This document shows positions 14,929 to 20,201 of a stretch of DNA of 20,201 nt, in pieces (within the stretch, counting starts at the first letter, position 1; each line of letters opens with the position of its first letter). Made by a program: the position numbers and the translations under genes. The DNA is from a virus. The notes beneath the pieces are model-generated. The model had not been told where the DNA came from. It ran no database searches and worked only from the letters and a program-made list of their open reading frames with translations. The stretch spans positions 1 through 20,201 of IMG/VR virus record IMGVR_UViG_3300042475_002290. One strand, given 5' to 3'.

Positions 14929-15324
14929 ATGACAGAACAAGAATTAACACAAACCTTGATCCAGTTAGCGGATCTGGGGGTTACTGGTATTAGAATAAAT
15001 TATGAAGGTGGAGGAGATAGTGGTTGTATAGAAGATATGAGGTATACAGATAAAGAGGGTGTTTCACTTGAAGAAGTTCAAAGTTTACCTTGGGATTCTA
15101 AGAATCTAAAAGAACTAAATAATGAACTTGCAATAAATATAGAAAACTTTGCAACAGATAAAATTCTTGATGATATTGAGGATTGGTGGAATAATGAGGG
15201 TGGTAGTGGTACAATGTCTATATTAGTTCCTTCCGGGGAATATTATGTAGAAAATAACATCAGAAAAATTGATTATGATGAGTTTATACATGAAGGTAAT
15301 TTATTTAGAAAAACAGAAGACTAA
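14929..15324 (+). CDS. Conserved acidic hypothetical protein
   Basis: A 131-residue acidic protein. The segment DDIEDWWNNEGGSGTMSILVPSGEYYV (residues ~82-108) is its most characteristic part: an 'E.WW.N.GG.GT' loop followed by a strand. I recall similar proteins (perhaps DUF6878) in bacteria and phages, but the family label is not certain. The N-terminus, TEQELTQTLIQLADLGVTGIRINYEGGGDSG, has a helix and a strand. It shares its first 19 bases with the gene at 6436. Its stop shares a base with the next start (15324). Confidence 0.62.
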   Translation: MTEQELTQTLIQLADLGVTGIRINYEGGGDSGCIEDMRYTDKEGVSLEEVQSLPWDSKNLKELNNELAINIENFATDKILDDIEDWWNNEGGSGTMSILVPSGEYYVENNIRKIDYDEFIHEGNLFRKTED

Positions 15325-15665
15325 TGTCACATCCTTGGCAACATGCAAAATCTTCTGCTAGAAAGTGGGGAGGTTTTCCAATTGATTACATAGAGATTCA
15401 TAACTGGTTTGATGAAACTAAGGCTTGGATAGGACACAGTAAACATAGAATGTTCAGACACCACAGTGAAGGAATATTTGAATGTGAGAAAAAGTTTGGA
15501 ACAAGTTTTGAAAATTCAGAAGGTAAAACTGTATACACAAGATATGTTGGTGAGCAACATGTAAAGGAAGATTGCAATGGATATATTCCAAGTGCTAAGG
15601 AGTGGGTTGATAATATAAATACACCTACAGAGTGGATGATTAAAACTTTAAAAATTGAAGACTGA
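15324..15665 (+). CDS. DUF6915-like conserved protein
   Basis: A 113-residue protein strongly resembling a conserved family of about this length (I believe DUF6915). It has HPWQHAKSSARKWGG at the start, then the IHNWFDETKAWIGHSKHRMFRHHSEGIFECEKKFG core, then YVGEQHVKEDCNGYIPSAKEWV. The many invariant His residues (HxWxDETKA, KHRxxRHHxxGIF, GEQHVxED) suggest a metal site and possibly an enzyme, though no activity is known to me. It overlaps the neighbours at both ends by one base, so it belongs to a tightly packed unit. Confidence 0.75.
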   Translation: MSHPWQHAKSSARKWGGFPIDYIEIHNWFDETKAWIGHSKHRMFRHHSEGIFECEKKFGTSFENSEGKTVYTRYVGEQHVKEDCNGYIPSAKEWVDNINTPTEWMIKTLKIED

Positions 15666-16090
15666 TGATTTTAACAAAAGATGAAGTAAGGAATCTGATT
15701 GGAATGCTAAGATCTCCAGACAAAGACAATAGACTTGTAGCTTTTAAGATAATAGAAGATCTAAATCTTAAAGAATATGTTGGAGAGATAATGGTAATGT
15801 ATAAATATGGTGAGTATAACTTGAGTAGTTGGGAACAAGACTGTAAACCTGCACATGAGTTTATAGTAGAGAGAATTGAGAAGTTCAATGGATATTGGGA
15901 AAGTAAACTAATCTCCGGAGAAATACTTGCACTAATGACAGCAAATAAATCTAGTAAACAATCAATAGAATTATTCTTAGAATATTTTATTAGAGACATG
16001 ACTAAGATATTAGATGCTATGGGGTATCCCACGGATAAATTTGAGTTAGATATAAAACTAAAACAAGATGGACAAACAACAGAGTCTTAG
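15665..16090 (+). CDS. Helical hypothetical protein sharing a motif with the 5858 gene
   Basis: A 141-residue protein of unknown function. Residues 3-33, which include DEVRNLIGMLRSPDKDN, match residues 121-151 of the protein at 5858-6439 (15 of 31 identical). The unit begins with a helix, has an acidic 'SxDxDN' turn and ends in a second helix, as in HEAT-like repeats. The remainder (VGEIMVMYKYGEYNLSSWEQD, FIVERIEKFNGYWESKLISGEILALMT) is helical. The 3' end overlaps the VWA gene by 23 bp. Confidence 0.62.
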   Translation: MILTKDEVRNLIGMLRSPDKDNRLVAFKIIEDLNLKEYVGEIMVMYKYGEYNLSSWEQDCKPAHEFIVERIEKFNGYWESKLISGEILALMTANKSSKQSIELFLEYFIRDMTKILDAMGYPTDKFELDIKLKQDGQTTES

Positions 16091-17246
16091 TAAAATTAGT
16101 AAAGAGCTGATGTTGAAAGAGCCCTATTATGGGTTCTTTCTCATTATGCTCAATAAAGTATGGAGAAAAGATCTTCCTACTGCAGGTGTTAGTAAGAATG
16201 GTATCAACTTTCAGTTGGCTATCAATGAAGAATTCTGGACAGGCCTCAGTGAGATGCATCAAATGGGATTACTAAAGCATGAATTACTTCATATAGCTTT
16301 TGGTCATCTGACAAGTTTTAAGTCTTTTAAGAATCATAGACTTGCAAACATAGCAATGGACATGGAAATCAACCAGTATATAGATAAAGACTGGTTGCCC
16401 AAGGGTGGAATAGATATAGATGACTATGAAGATTTAGATCTTGATAGGAAAGCTGGTTGTAGATATTACTATGACAAGCTGAATCAGTTTCAAGAAGAGA
16501 AGGATAAGAATGGTAGTTGTGGTAATGAGGATATGGATAAGTTACTTGATCAAGTAGCTAATGGAGAAGGACCAGACCACAGTACATGGGGAGAGTTTGA
16601 AGATCTTAGTGAAGCTGAGCAAAAGTTAATAGAGAAACAATTACAGAAAGTTTTATCTGATGCTAAAGAACAAACTGTTAAAAAGCGCGGGAATGTTCCA
16701 GGTGAGATAGAAGGAGTAATTGTTATTGAACAAATAGTAGCACCTAAGTTTGACTGGCGTGGATATATTAGAAGATTTACTGGAGTTAGTACAAAGGTAT
16801 TTACTAAGAAAATCCGTAGAAAAGAAAACAGAAGGTATGAAGAGAATCCAGGTCTGAAGATTAAAATGAGACAACACATGTTGTTAGCTATTGATACTTC
16901 AGGTTCTGTGAGTAATAATGAGCTACAAGAATTCATGGGTGAGATTCACCATATTTACAAAGCAGGTGTAGATGTAACTATAATGCAGTGTGATACTAGC
17001 ATTAGGTCTATTGAAGCCTACAAAGGTAAGAATGAAATAAATGTAGTAGGAAGAGGAGGAACAGAGTTTGATCCTGTCTTGGATTATTATAATGCTAACC
17101 AAAAGAAATATACTAGCCTGGTGTATTTTACTGACGGTGAGTGTTATACATCTGTAGTACCAAAAGGTAATGTCCTTTGGGTATTGTCAGAAAGATCAAG
17201 TATGAATGAAAGTTTACCAGGTAGAGTTATTAAATTAGAATTATAA
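16068..17246 (+). CDS. VWA-domain protein with metallopeptidase-like N-terminus
   Basis: A 392-residue protein with two parts. Residues ~1-215 resemble the metallopeptidase-like domain of DUF2201-type proteins, with HELLHIAFGH (71-80) giving an HExxH zinc motif plus a further His80. Residues ~268-392 are a VWA-like domain: MIDAS motif DTSGS (276-280), a GGTEF threonine (332) and YFTDGE (353-358). The middle is charged and contains a basic hinge (KKIRRKENRRYEEN). Proteins of this layout are paired with MoxR-type AAA+ ATPases in bacteria and phages, as here with the next gene. The pair is expected to work as a chaperone or remodelling system; the target is unknown. It starts inside the preceding gene. 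Confidence 0.88.
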   Translation: MDKQQSLSKISKELMLKEPYYGFFLIMLNKVWRKDLPTAGVSKNGINFQLAINEEFWTGLSEMHQMGLLKHELLHIAFGHLTSFKSFKNHRLANIAMDMEINQYIDKDWLPKGGIDIDDYEDLDLDRKAGCRYYYDKLNQFQEEKDKNGSCGNEDMDKLLDQVANGEGPDHSTWGEFEDLSEAEQKLIEKQLQKVLSDAKEQTVKKRGNVPGEIEGVIVIEQIVAPKFDWRGYIRRFTGVSTKVFTKKIRRKENRRYEENPGLKIKMRQHMLLAIDTSGSVSNNELQEFMGEIHHIYKAGVDVTIMQCDTSIRSIEAYKGKNEINVVGRGGTEFDPVLDYYNANQKKYTSLVYFTDGECYTSVVPKGNVLWVLSERSSMNESLPGRVIKLEL

Positions 17247-17251
17247 AAATT

Positions 17252-18421
17252 ATGAACACAGTACAATTAAACGTAGAAGAGTTAAAAGGATTTATCCGTC
17301 ACATGGTTAAGAATAACCAGCATATTCAAGCTGAAGGCAAAGTGCCTGTTGCAATTAACATAGAGGGTGATGCCGGTCTTGGTAAGACTTCTGCTATTAT
17401 GCAGTTGGGTAAAGAACTTGGTATGGATGTAGTAAAATTGAATCTATCTCAGATAGAGGAGCTAGGTGACCTTGTTGGTTTTCCTGTGAAAGAATTTTTA
17501 GTGCAAAATGCAGAAGGTAAACAAAGATGGATAACTGAAGCTCAGGTTCCAGCAGCCATGAATGCTAAGTATACTGTTGTAGATAAGAGAATGGCTCATG
17601 CTGCTCCTGAGTGGATTCAAGGTAAAGGTGAAGGTGGCTTCTTGGTATTGGATGATTATACTCGTGCAGACCATAGATTTATGCAAGCTACTATGGAGAT
17701 CTTAGATAGACAAGAATATGTTTCTTGGAAGCTACCTAAGAACTGGCATGTTATCTTGACCACTAATCCAGACAATGGTGACTATAATGTTACTAGCTTA
17801 GATGTTGCTCAGAAGACTAGATTTATTTCTGTGGAGATGAAGTATGATTCTGATGTATGGGCTAAGTGGGCAGAGAAAGCAGGGATAGATGGTAGATGTA
17901 TTAACTTTATGTTGATGCATCCTGAGCTTGTAACTCAAAGAGTTAATCCAAGGTCTATTACTACATTCTTTAATGCTATTAGTTCTATTCCTAAGTTTGA
18001 AGATGATCTACCTCTAATCCAAATGATTGGTGAAGGTTCTGTAGGAGCAGACTTTAGTTCTATGTTTACTATGTTTATCAATAATAAACTAGATAAGTTA
18101 ATTTCTCCTGAAGATATCTTGACTAAAGATAAAGATTATGTAATGGGAGCTCTGACAAATGCAGTTGGTAAAGGTGATGATTTTAGAGCAGATATCTCTA
18201 GTATTATTGCAACACGGGTAATTAACTATTCACTTGTTCAAGCTGATAAAGGTGCAATTGCTCCAACAGTAATTGACAGACTAGCAATTCTTACTACTGA
18301 ATGTGATGCATTTACAAATGACCTTAGATATTATATGGTCAAAGAGATAGTAAATGGAAACAAAGTTAAGTTTGCTGCTCTTATGAGAAACAATAATGTA
18401 GTCAAAATGGCAATACAGTAA
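17252..18421 (+). CDS. MoxR-type AAA+ ATPase
   Basis: A 389-residue AAA+ ATPase, 5 bp after its VWA partner. Walker A GDAGLGKT is at 39-46, Walker B FLVLDD at 130-135, sensor 1 ILTTNPDNGD at 168-177, and a conserved arginine near 190 (AQKTRF). A helical lid domain follows. The MoxR family drives maturation or disassembly of protein complexes together with VWA proteins. The final ten residues NNNVVKMAIQ are nearly identical to the last ten of the downstream HNH endonuclease, showing that the 3' end of this gene was copied or replaced when that gene arrived. Targeting by a mobile nuclease suggests the gene is conserved across related phages. Confidence 0.9.
   Translation: MNTVQLNVEELKGFIRHMVKNNQHIQAEGKVPVAINIEGDAGLGKTSAIMQLGKELGMDVVKLNLSQIEELGDLVGFPVKEFLVQNAEGKQRWITEAQVPAAMNAKYTVVDKRMAHAAPEWIQGKGEGGFLVLDDYTRADHRFMQATMEILDRQEYVSWKLPKNWHVILTTNPDNGDYNVTSLDVAQKTRFISVEMKYDSDVWAKWAEKAGIDGRCINFMLMHPELVTQRVNPRSITTFFNAISSIPKFEDDLPLIQMIGEGSVGADFSSMFTMFINNKLDKLISPEDILTKDKDYVMGALTNAVGKGDDFRADISSIIATRVINYSLVQADKGAIAPTVIDRLAILTTECDAFTNDLRYYMVKEIVNGNKVKFAALMRNNNVVKMAIQ
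18389..18421 (+). repeat. Upstream copy of the MoxR 3'-end repeat
   Basis: The last 11 codons of the MoxR gene (NNNVVKMAIQ plus stop). It matches 19025-19057 at 25 of 33 bases. Six differences are synonymous third-base changes and one codon (AAT to ACG) changes Asn to Thr. The two copies are exactly 636 bp, or 212 codons, apart. Confidence 0.9.
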
Positions 18422-18439
18422 ATAATATTTATATTATAA

Positions 18440-18484
18440 ATGGTAACAAAATTAATTGTATATTTACAACAAAAAGTTACCATG
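18440..18484 (+). promoter_or_regulatory. Hairpin enclosing the HNH start codon
   Basis: A perfect 8-bp inverted repeat, ATGGTAAC (18440-18447) with GTTACCAT (18476-18483), has a 28-base loop. The 3' arm contains the first two bases of the chosen HNH start ATG (18482-18484), so in a read-through transcript the start would be paired. The loop holds TATATTTA (18459-18466), one mismatch from the Bacteroidota -7 element TAnnTTTG. A transcript starting there would lack the 5' arm. This is a reading of the sequence; no promoter is proven. Confidence 0.55.
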
Positions 18485-19057
18485 GAAAATATTAAGTGTA
18501 CAAGATGTAAGTTGGAAAAGAATATATCTGAGTTTTATAAGTCAAAGAGACATAAGCTCGGATATATTCCAACTTGTAAGGAATGTGAATCTATTAGACA
18601 TTCCTCTAATTATAAACCAAGTGCAAGACAGAAAAAATATGAAGATAACAAAGAGAAATATCTTTTGAGTGTAAAAAGGTATGCTGAAAAAAACAAGGAC
18701 AAAATAAAACAGCAACAAAGGAATTATTATTTAAATAATAAACTAAGATTTCTTGAAGCTGGTTGGAAGAAAAAAGGTATTTTAAATAAGGATTTAGAGT
18801 TTTTTAGAAAAAAAGATTTTGATGAACTATTTGAAAAAGCGGGTATGGTTTGTCAAATATGTGGAGAATCAGTTATTAAACATAAAAAAGGATTTGTTGT
18901 TGATCACTGTCATGCAACGGGTATTGCAAGGGGAATATTATGCGCACATTGTAATGTAGCACTTGGTAGTTTTAAAGATAATATAGAAATTATAAAAAAT
19001 GCTATTAATTATCTGGATATGCAGAATACGAATGTGGTGAAGATGGCTATCCAGTAA
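18482..19057 (+). CDS. HNH endonuclease, endonuclease VII type, probable homing endonuclease
   Basis: A 191-residue free-standing HNH nuclease. The N-terminal zinc ribbon has Cys6, Cys9, Cys32 and Cys35 (CTRC ... CKEC). A lysine-rich helical linker follows (NKEKYLLSVKRYAEKNKDKIKQQQ). The C-terminal endonuclease VII domain has VCQIC (123-127), VVDHCHATGIARG (139-149) with the catalytic DHCH, and LCAHCN (153-158). Its last ten residues (NTNVVKMAIQ) duplicate the end of the MoxR protein upstream. I chose 18482 over the in-frame ATG at 18440 because related proteins start just before the first zinc Cys pair and the longer form begins in a hairpin arm. It lies between the MoxR gene and a terminator-like hairpin and probably spreads by homing into the MoxR gene. 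Confidence 0.88.
   Translation: MENIKCTRCKLEKNISEFYKSKRHKLGYIPTCKECESIRHSSNYKPSARQKKYEDNKEKYLLSVKRYAEKNKDKIKQQQRNYYLNNKLRFLEAGWKKKGILNKDLEFFRKKDFDELFEKAGMVCQICGESVIKHKKGFVVDHCHATGIARGILCAHCNVALGSFKDNIEIIKNAINYLDMQNTNVVKMAIQ
19025..19057 (+). repeat. Downstream copy of the MoxR 3'-end repeat (end of HNH gene)
   Basis: The last 11 codons of the HNH gene (NTNVVKMAIQ plus stop), the partner of 18389-18421. It directly precedes the hairpin at 19061, which would naturally end the MoxR operon. This suggests that the downstream copy is the original 3' end and the upstream copy is the replacement, though the reverse is possible. Confidence 0.9.
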
Positions 19058-19060
19058 AAC

Positions 19061-19083
19061 AAAGGTGGGGATTCACCCCCTTT
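19061..19083 (+). terminator. Terminator-like hairpin after the HNH gene
   Basis: AAAGG (19061-19065), a bulged T, then GGG pair with CCC CCTTT (19076-19083), about 8 bp with a short loop (GATTCA). It starts 3 bases after the HNH stop codon. No run of T follows beyond the TTT in the stem, so efficiency is uncertain. The position fits an operon end. Confidence 0.5.
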
Positions 19084-19110
19084 AAACAAACATTTAACTA
19101 ATAAAAAACT

Positions 19111-19143
19111 AAGATGGGGGAAGGTAATACTTCCCCTAATCTT
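19111..19143 (+). promoter_or_regulatory. GC-clamped hairpin before the 19157 gene
   Basis: A perfect 7-bp stem, GGGGAAG (19117-19123) with CTTCCCC (19130-19136), loop GTAATA, is extended across a small internal loop by AAGAT (19111-19115) with ATCTT (19139-19143). It ends 13 bases before the next ATG and has no U tract. It may be a second terminator in tandem with 19061-19083, or the 5' leader of the following gene. The rest of the 99-bp gap is plain A/T-rich sequence. Confidence 0.55.
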
Positions 19144-19156
19144 TATAAATTAAACT

Positions 19157-20201
19157 ATGGAAAAATTTGTTCATATTGAATTGACCAATGGGTCAGATCA
19201 CAGTACTGTACGTGGATTAGATGTAAATATTATAGAAGGTCTAGGAGATTCATTTGATACTTTTGTAAATGCAAAAGGATATGTTCCTACAAAAGGAGAC
19301 ACAATATATCTACTTCCGGGAGTTAATATCCCAAGAATGAAACTAAAAGACCTTGCATTGAATCTTGGTATTAGAGTGGTAAGAGATCCGGAAAAAGCTA
19401 CTGTTGTGTTCAGCGGTAAAAGCAGTGTGGGTAAACTAACTACATCTAACTGGTATTATTTTGCAGATGCAAACACTATTCTTGAAAATGTAAAGAAGCT
19501 TTGTAATGATGACTATTACATTGAGAAACTAGAAACAGCAATAGCAAGTACTGGTGCTGAGAGAGTTTGTTCAAATTGGTCAGACATGAGAAATACTCTT
19601 TGTAATGGAAGTATAGATACTTATGAAAGTCAATATTTTTATGGTATTGAACCAGAGTATCAAGAAACATTTGATGCTATTCAGGGTAAACCAATCTATT
19701 GTGAGTCAGAGTTAATTACTAATATTAATGGTGATGATTCTACAATTATAGACTATGATGTGTATAGGCAATTACAAACTATGTTTGAAAGTTCTGATGA
19801 TGACAATCATGTTCTTGCTATGGAAATTATGGCAAACTCTCATTATGAAAAGAGTGTGCTTTATTTACTAATGCTTATAAGTGATTACCAGCATGTAATA
19901 AGCAATACACATACTAAGAACCATGTGAACTTCAAGTCTATGCTTGCTTATTTCAATTGGATTCCGAGAAATATAAGTAGTTTAAATGCTCATCATATTG
20001 TCAAGATTATAGATCAAAAAGGTCTGCTAACTCTAGATATGATTAAAGTATTGTATAAAGAGTATACCAATGATATTCATAGAATGATTTCATATGATGA
20101 GGTCTTTGAGATCAAGGAAGTTACTATTAAACAAGACTATCTTGACAAACTTGGTTTAACATCTTTTAACTTAATTAATCCTGAAGAACTTGAGGTCACA
20201 G
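19157..20201 (+). CDS. Large hypothetical protein, 3'-truncated by window end
   Basis: The frame is open from the ATG at 19157 through the last base (348 codons, no stop). The protein starts MEKFVHIELTNGSDHSTVRG and includes VPTKGDTIYLLPGVNIPRMKLKD, VVRDPEKATVVFSGKSSVGKLTTSNW, and a region rich in acidic residues and Tyr (VYRQLQTMFESSDDDNHVLAMEIM). The second half is helical (HYEKSVLYLLMLISDYQHVI, ITHRMISYDE-like segments). The GKSSVGKLTT stretch looks superficially like a P-loop but does not fit GxxxxGK[ST] well, and no Walker B is seen nearby. I do not recognise the family. It begins a new unit after two hairpins. Confidence 0.75.
   Translation, partial: MEKFVHIELTNGSDHSTVRGLDVNIIEGLGDSFDTFVNAKGYVPTKGDTIYLLPGVNIPRMKLKDLALNLGIRVVRDPEKATVVFSGKSSVGKLTTSNWYYFADANTILENVKKLCNDDYYIEKLETAIASTGAERVCSNWSDMRNTLCNGSIDTYESQYFYGIEPEYQETFDAIQGKPIYCESELITNINGDDSTIIDYDVYRQLQTMFESSDDDNHVLAMEIMANSHYEKSVLYLLMLISDYQHVISNTHTKNHVNFKSMLAYFNWIPRNISSLNAHHIVKIIDQKGLLTLDMIKVLYKEYTNDIHRMISYDEVFEIKEVTIKQDYLDKLGLTSFNLINPEELEVT

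Follow-up and report, generated by a model that had tools for sequence, protein, structure and literature searches.

A candidate homing endonuclease gene that replaces the 3' end of a phage MoxR-like gene with a recoded copy

We analyzed a virus record of 20,201 bases (IMG/VR record IMGVR_UViG_3300042475_002290; this whole stretch is called the window) in which a MoxR-like ATPase gene is followed by a gene for an endonuclease VII-type HNH nuclease (Table 1). The two genes end alike. Positions 18389–18421, at the end of the MoxR gene, read AAC AAT AAT GTA GTC AAA ATG GCA ATA CAG TAA and encode NNNVVKMAIQ and a stop. Positions 19025–19057, at the end of the nuclease gene, read AAT ACG AAT GTG GTG AAG ATG GCT ATC CAG TAA and encode NTNVVKMAIQ and a stop. 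As stated in an initial annotation made from the sequence, these 33-mers have 8 mismatches in 33 bases, made up of six synonymous third-base changes and one two-base codon change. The MoxR protein matches PHROG 1297 ‘ATPase’ (E 1.3e-33), is 25% identical to annotated phage MoxR-like ATPases and has no Pfam match at E ≤ 0.001. A nucleotide search of the annotated phage collection with window positions 16000–20201 gave no match.

Table 1. Features around the insertion at the end of the MoxR-like gene (positions in the window).
Feature	Position	Strand	Remark
3' end of the VWA/DUF2201 gene, native and empty; site of a GIY-YIG insertion in relatives	17211..17246	+	Window tail is of native type
MoxR-like ATPase gene, resident part	17252..18376	+	Open reading frame (ORF) of 389 amino acids
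Recoded MoxR 3' end carried by the insert, ALMRNNNVVKMAIQ and stop	18377..18421	+	Occupies the place of AAACTCATGCAG.. in L003
Nuclease-gene leader	18422..18481	+	93% identical to L022
Endonuclease VII-type HNH nuclease (179 codons, no own stop)	18482..19018	+	PF02945, E 5.9e-21
Displaced native MoxR 3' end, now nuclease C-terminus and stop, MQNTNVVKMAIQ and stop	19019..19057	+	39/39 nucleotides as in the native end of HNH-free L003
Native intergenic DNA with terminator-like hairpin, host DNA outside the insert	19058..19156	+	3/99 nucleotides differ from HNH-free L003

We compared this locus with the best 80 of 594 related stretches, all of which (80/80) include the MoxR stop. Three HNH-free relatives (L003, L004 and L005; MoxR 97–98% identical, 98% for L003) end MoxR with AATACGAATGTGGTGAAGATGGCTATCCAGTAA, followed by AACAAAGGTGG.. 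or a near variant. They carry the exact downstream 33-mer as the native MoxR end and continue into DNA like that from 19058 onwards; none ends MoxR with a sequence like 18389–18421 followed by foreign DNA. L003 reads TTTGCT AAACTC ATGCAGAATACG, and the window reads TTTGCT GCTCTTATGAGA(..)TAA, then the leader, the HNH gene and ATGCAGAATACG. The insert comprises 642 nucleotides (18377–19018), begins 15 codons (stop included) upstream of the native MoxR end and replaced 6 nucleotides, for a net gain of 636. These relatives bear out two earlier proposals: that an element entered near the 3' end of MoxR and brought a replacement end, stop included, and that the displaced original end now serves as the C-terminus and stop of the nuclease. 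The repeat had been given as the last 33 bp of each gene; the 33-mers are present, but the carried copy is longer and starts at about 18377. The terminator-like hairpin after the second copy is host DNA, and we rejected it as part of the element.

Window and L003 differ at 31 of 1119 nucleotides in the MoxR body (up to 18370) and at 15 of the last 51 nucleotides of the gene (Fisher p 9e-11). Over the last 16 MoxR codons, about 9.5 synonymous differences fall on 9.2 synonymous sites, which is saturation; synonymous divergence (dS) in the body is 0.114. The stop-to-stop distance of the two copies is 636 bp, as first reported, but the shared frame with MoxR (636 = 3 x 212) is coincidental, because the distance is 637 in another relative (L022) and 785–787 in six cases with a GIY-YIG nuclease, discussed below. 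The frame that is preserved by the design is that of the nuclease ORF with its displaced tail, not that of MoxR.

An HNH motif lies within 900 nucleotides after MoxR at 2 of the 80 loci (L001 and L022), in addition to the window; the downstream DNA is shorter than 500 nucleotides at 4 of the 80. L001 is the window's strain in another contig (2 differences in 6763 nucleotides). L022 belongs to another clade (MoxR body 87% identical in DNA) and carries this insert at the identical position. Its HNH gene is 90% identical to that of the window, the last 51 nucleotides of its MoxR gene 82% and its downstream gene 76%. L022 differs from its nearest relative, L067, at 14 of 1119 nucleotides in the MoxR body and at 17 of 51 in the MoxR end, and its HNH protein ends with ..NTNVVKMAIS, the last residue being that of L022's own clade. 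On a tree of 81 MoxR sequences, occupancy requires two changes, both forced by well-supported branches. The HNH gene is optional at a fixed site among close relatives, as are endonuclease VII-motif homing endonucleases, and lies within the last MoxR codons rather than between intact genes as in T4-type insertions. Among viral contigs, the leader 27-mer and the carried-end pattern were each found only in the L001 and L022 contigs, both occupied. Two further MoxR ends (L047 and L069) show a mix of native and recoded-looking codons with no nuclease seen, and may be older scars or natural variants.

The insert's selfish gene, found here in uncultured aquatic phages, probably encodes a DNA-cutting enzyme. 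Its product belongs to the endonuclease VII family and is related to Hpy99I (3fc3, E 2.5e-9, with the alignment reaching residue 179). The DHHRN motif described for endonuclease VII-motif homing endonucleases, CX2-4C ... DHxH ... R ... CX2C-N (PMC6083498), is complete (C124-C127, D141 H142 C143 H144, R150, C154-C157, N158). The ratio of nonsynonymous to synonymous divergence from L022 (dN/dS) is 0.13, which indicates purifying selection on the nuclease. An alternative ATG lies further upstream, at 18440, but falls out of frame in L022, whose leader has one additional base; 18482 is therefore the likely start. In 44 of 56 distinct endonuclease VII-type ORFs, the stop comes within 10 residues of an AIxYL-type motif, and the window's 12-residue tail is therefore an addition. 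NVVKMAI occurs in these 56 ORFs only in the window allele and L022, and the decapeptide is thus not a general ending of such proteins. The predicted model has a mean confidence (predicted local distance difference test score) of 87.3; residues 181–190 average 65 and extend the last helix. An inverted repeat in the leader (18440–18447 and 18476–18483) has a 3' arm that overlaps part of the start codon. The z-scores of the leader RNA fold are −2.75 in the window, −2.28 in L022 and −5.80 in a related locus, L156, where the hairpin is kept and the start codon lies outside it. The hairpin may affect translation. Besides the nuclease, the 642-nucleotide insert contains only one ORF of at least 60 amino acids (70 amino acids, overlapping the nuclease and not put to a family search). 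No recombinase gene, which would mark the integrase-borne elements that restore gene 3' ends, was recognized among them, and PF02945 is the only match of the nuclease.

The same design occurs with an unrelated nuclease family (GIY-YIG) and at other phage genes. The VWA/DUF2201 gene adjoins MoxR upstream and, in relatives that include L018, L025, L031, L033, L053 and L055, is invaded by a GIY-YIG/NUMOD1 nuclease (PHROG 314 ‘homing endonuclease’). All 22 loci examined (18 contigs, four of them fetched twice) combine a recoded VWA end (..CTTGA[AG]CTTTAA) with a nuclease that ends in the native-type end, and at all 22 the variable VWA residue (K/H/Q) is the same in the carried and the displaced end. 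The VWA end, which we located by blastp since a motif search caught only 41 of 89 loci, is visible at 87 of these 89, 8 of which were picked because the GIY gene was present: 17 are occupied, 2 are scar-like and 68 are without the nuclease. The recoded CTTGA motif is found at 17/17 occupied versus 2/70 unoccupied loci. Occupancy requires at least 10 changes on well-supported branches, and the empty L052 and the occupied L053 match each other on either side of the insert. L042 and L043, mutually identical in the VWA stretch compared, are recoded through CTTGAA, continue with native TTATAA and contain no nuclease; they look like scar alleles that remain after nuclease loss.

Four loci with CTTCCGGGGCAG at the VWA end show a mix of native and recoded-looking codons without a visible nuclease, and may be older scars or natural variants. 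The sequence TATATTTG stands immediately 5' of the GIY start codon at 6/6 loci printed (L018, L025, L031, L033, L053 and L055). The −7 promoter box of Bacteroidota is TAnnTTTG, which TATATTTG resembles; it could give the GIY cassette a promoter of its own. Related phages have other GIY-YIG matches away from VWA (G011:C1:43319-43558 and G004:C1:4850-5086, the latter below the family cut-off).

We searched for further cases with a frame-free test, in which a displaced copy of the upstream gene end is sought behind 67 endonuclease VII-type ORFs and compared with 1005 re-paired controls. This test was used because a scan for repeated protein tails detects in-frame fusions only. Five loci (L226, L001, L022, L114 and L153) scored above the control maximum of 34. 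L001, a near-identical copy of the window allele, scored 55, and the window's end repeat is not due to chance. The proposed hunt for other phage HNH genes that repeat the upstream C-terminus has yielded additional examples. Short displaced ends, namely those at the adaptor-like gene and the YA ends of cyanophages described below, fall below the test (L247, p 0.04; L176, p 0.06) and rest on comparison with empty relatives. The in-frame tail-repeat scan, which covered six relatives' contigs completely or to at least 96% and one third of a seventh contig, recovered the GIY/VWA and KWNC cases, besides look-alikes.

In L226, the invaded gene encodes a UvrD-like helicase (PF00580, 1e-26) that ends with ..NYLGFISDWSFF and a stop, and the HNH ORF closes with ..NYLGIITDWSFFKENS and a stop. 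Two relatives (L237 and L238, 74%) have the longer helicase end with the next gene directly after it. The L114 site is a small gene ending in KWNC, for which G003 has the native arrangement. L153 is the cultured Synechococcus phage S-B28, in which the invaded gene is named ribonucleotide reductase (RNR) class Ia beta subunit in RefSeq and has no Pfam match. This gene ends with ..AACCGAAACCTGCCTCAGTATGCTTAA; behind the HNH gene, TAATGTCAACCTCCCCCAATACGCTTAG equals the native end of phages WH11-B and 7B11-B, with the same flank after it. In these two phages the site is empty and the protein is 97.5% identical to that of S-B28. Between S-B28 and WH11-B, 14 of the 27 differences in the gene fall in the last 36 of 717 nucleotides, and the TAA stop of the S-B28 HNH gene is built by native DNA. 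S-SRP01 and DSL-LC07 have other endonuclease VII-type genes at the same RNR end, which close with ..KYA and a stop on an apparent native ..QYA end. An S-SRP01 ORF has been given as a homologue of the restriction endonuclease Hpy99I (PMC8557907).

The gene that precedes the L176 HNH gene is SU10-adaptor-like (PF24175, 1.1e-7). Of 295 related loci, the best 80 were compared; an HNH gene follows this adaptor-like gene in 5 of them, and in 4 of the 5, the gene end has recoded codons (CCAATAAGAATCCA.. versus mostly CCAATCCGTATTCA..) and the HNH ORF ends in native-type HYTR or YYTR. In the same set, 8 loci lack an HNH gene and have the recoded ATAAGA codons. Two of these retain parts of the nuclease gene between the recoded and native ends (start and 3' end in L277, first bases in L270) and are, to judge from these remnants, deletion scars. 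The other six (L252, L256, L260, L263, L300 and L315) could be recombinants or natural variants. The adaptor-like gene end of L249 is a mix of native and recoded-looking codons with no nuclease seen, possibly an older scar or a natural variant.

A mirror-image arrangement at a 5' end is present in L155, Leptolyngbya phage Lbo-JY46 (PP438436, 2387–3010). Here, a remnant start, MSFKINSLYLADGYK (MSFKINSLYLADGYKK and a stop), lies upstream of an endonuclease VII-type gene, and a PncB start in other codons, MSFKINSLYWVDGYK, lies downstream, with the HNH stop inside the new start. This locus scored 45 against a control maximum of 38 (58 loci tested) and is suggestive of replacement at a 5' end. Annotated phages include no close HNH-free relative, and Tenacibaculum phage PTm1 (57% identical) has no HNH motif at such a 5' site, judged by eye. 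Two loci are possible further cases: L158, on the 5' side, scored 31 (control 99% point 29), and L173 reached 34, the control maximum itself (p 0.002). In L173 (2900–3500), the upstream gene ends with ..TARVTELENA and a stop, and another frame behind the HNH gene ends with ..IARIEVLENA and a stop, a possible displaced end.

We consider it very likely that 18377–19018 is a minimal homing element that replaces the MoxR end and whose nuclease targets empty alleles. The endonuclease VII-type nuclease would cut the MoxR 3' end in alleles without the element, around CTC^ATGCAG, and repair templated by occupied phages would copy in the nuclease gene together with the stretch that directly precedes it. 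This stretch is a full substitute for the last MoxR codons, written in other codons, and the sequence shows that a near-same protein end is kept. A restored whole gene end would re-create the target unless it were altered. In the occupied allele, altered codons follow the left half of the target and the nuclease gene separates it from the right half, an arrangement visible in the window that may protect against cleavage; resistance of the recoded copy is plausible. The native end stays downstream, where the stop-less nuclease ORF reads on into it and borrows 12 codons and a stop. If the element were later deleted, or lost when the two gene ends recombine, recoded codons would remain, and a few alleles with such codons but no nuclease look like scars. 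Comparison with relatives shows end replacement, displacement of the native end, stop borrowing, repeated gain and loss, and purifying selection on the nuclease; we infer cutting of empty alleles, copying by break repair and protection by recoding.

Different origins or roles of the recoded end are conceivable. The carried end could derive from a more distant relative, whose native end was captured together with the nuclease by horizontal transfer, as proposed for fungal elements. Among 23 native ends compared, the carried ends of the window and L022, AALMR(N/D)(N/T)NVVKMAI., are closest to those of the DTN clade (L026/L045: AALMQDTNVVKMAIQ), with 38–39/51 nucleotides and 14–15/17 amino acids shared, versus 34–36/51 and 13–14/17 for their own clade. 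This margin is just 3–4 nucleotides of 51, the carried-end DNA pattern is confined to the two occupied contigs, and the K/H/Q match at all 22 VWA loci would be unexpected from a single foreign donor. We regard capture of a foreign end as a possibility, though not the favored one. Recoding might instead guard against loss by recombination between near-identical ends about 640 bp apart, and not against the nuclease. Recombinant-looking alleles do exist (L042/L043 at VWA and up to six adaptor-gene alleles, those listed above), but this role leaves unexplained how an insert that restores a gene end avoids re-creating its own target, and the two roles of recoding are not mutually exclusive. As a replacement for the anti-cleavage role, it seems to us doubtful.

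That an ordinary free-standing homing gene settled behind MoxR, with the second copy arising when the gene end was duplicated in tandem and then drifted, is improbable. L156 does have a related, free-standing HNH gene with its own stop after MoxR; however, in HNH-free L003 the native end corresponds to the downstream copy and directly abuts the native flank, and the divergence lies in the upstream copy (15/51 versus 0/39 nucleotides). Drift would not saturate synonymous sites there alone, nor recur with unrelated nucleases at other genes. Homing nucleases are often carried by introns and inteins, and splicing could in principle join the host gene. We find this very hard to maintain for the window, which has no Rfam match at gathering cut-offs (no ribozyme core was recognized) and in which MoxR is complete, with a stop at 18421 before a nuclease gene that has its own start; splicing is unneeded and the continuous frame of an intein is absent. 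The window and its IMG/VR relatives are uncultured records, and an assembly chimera of two strains might mimic the arrangement. The same junction in L022 (another clade), the same design in 18 contigs at VWA and its presence in the named isolate S-B28 make an artefact scarcely credible.

Several observations weigh against the homing element as proposed, or against its generality. The window and L001 represent a single strain, which leaves two independent genomes as the basis of the MoxR element. An association of recoded end and nuclease is expected anyway, as both ride on one insert. The design was detected in only 6/67 endonuclease VII-type ORFs, a lower bound because displaced ends of 2–4 residues are invisible to the frame-free test, and most such genes may lack it. 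The L226 nuclease looks frameshifted. Two HNH genes are conventional neighbors: that of L299, after the adaptor-like gene, which keeps native codons with no displaced tail seen, and that of L156 (51% identical), after a MoxR gene ending with SEIAKIAVK, which has its own stop and likewise no displaced tail seen. On balance, we lean slightly towards terminus rebuilding with a recoded copy as a general, overlooked niche that is free of introns and inteins, is used by at least two nuclease families, often involves stop borrowing and extends to 5' ends.

The element is real, has been repeatedly gained and lost, and is a phage variant of a kind found in fungi. An element at atp6 of Allomyces was reportedly treated by Paquin et al. 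in 1994. In Glomus mitochondria, endonuclease-bearing mobile ORFs (mORFs) at atp6, atp9, cox2 and nad3 are described as replacing gene 3' ends, as is the Allomyces atp6 mORF (PMC3630166). In the same account, the carried C-terminus is fused in phase, the native end lies behind the endonuclease ORF, and the two copies have low DNA and high protein identity. In Endoconidiophora, too, endonuclease ORFs are described next to duplicated C-termini of atp6 and cob (PMC6279837). The statement of the initial annotation that no described HNH homing gene behaves in this way is thus too strong in general; among the titles and abstracts listed, no paper appeared to describe a phage homing gene that exchanges a gene end for a recoded copy. 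As in fungal mORFs, the replacement 3' end of the phage element is in phase, diverged in DNA and conserved in protein, and the native end, displaced behind the endonuclease ORF, matches that of uninvaded relatives. Unlike these mitochondrial elements, which encode LAGLIDADG or GIY-YIG enzymes, the present cases are in bacteriophages, with endonuclease VII-type as well as GIY-YIG nucleases. The phage elements carry short ends (about 8–15 codons where the boundary could be judged), their nucleases adopt the displaced end as C-terminus and stop (which some fungal ORFs may also do), and scar-like alleles are seen. The phage element resembles an mORF in how it works, but we do not class it as one.

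Several phage systems share parts of this design. The DHHRN enzyme F-CphI has the same catalytic motif and is an optional phage gene adjoining its target gene; its own DNA is protected because an intron splits the target (PMC6083498), whereas protection here would come from a rebuilt, recoded gene end. The free-standing seg and mob homing endonucleases of T4, which spread by double-strand-break repair, are likewise optional GIY-YIG and HNH genes beside conserved genes. They lie in intergenic regions (PMC2988022), unlike the present insertion, which is within a coding region and replaces the gene end. In T4 gene 39/60, a homing insertion splits the gene and a 50-nucleotide insert is bypassed in translation (PMC5009743). 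There, too, a homing gene interrupts a phage gene and a nearby alteration may protect from cleavage, but here the gene is rebuilt in DNA. An HNH insertion in phage methylases, reported for ShiLan, begins with 11 in-frame residues that are very similar to the 11 after the insertion site, and its authors discussed introns and inteins (PMC11855218). This 11-residue repeat is as a model of end rebuilding would predict, although the ShiLan insertion is internal and leaves the methylase frame without a stop. End rebuilding is one possible reading of this puzzling repeat.

Homing genes are commonly described in introns, in inteins or between genes, where the host gene stays unbroken, and gene-end replacement would be a further route for them in phages. 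The design suggests how an insert may restore a gene without re-creating its own target, and stages of a homing cycle (empty, occupied and scar-like) are visible at single sites. It can be tested in cultured cyanophages (S-B28 versus WH11-B). If the interpretation is true, recoded ends left after loss are readable fossils of past homing in phage genes. Annotators should be aware that, where a phage nuclease closes with a short conserved stretch, this C-terminus may be the borrowed end of another gene.

We set aside by eye, for gene-family resemblance, overlap or low complexity, the tail pairs of L160/L161, L159, L211, L184, L193, L190 and L235, as well as lysine-rich or GC-rich ORFs with high-scoring tail pairs. 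In L053 (1122–1630), two small ORFs (101 and 69 amino acids, no Pfam match) lie between the homologue of window gene 15324–15665 and the next gene. Each ends with ..KIED and a stop in a TAATG overlap, like the resident gene, and neither is listed in the window (15660–15670); they are perhaps cassettes joined at repeated gene junctions.

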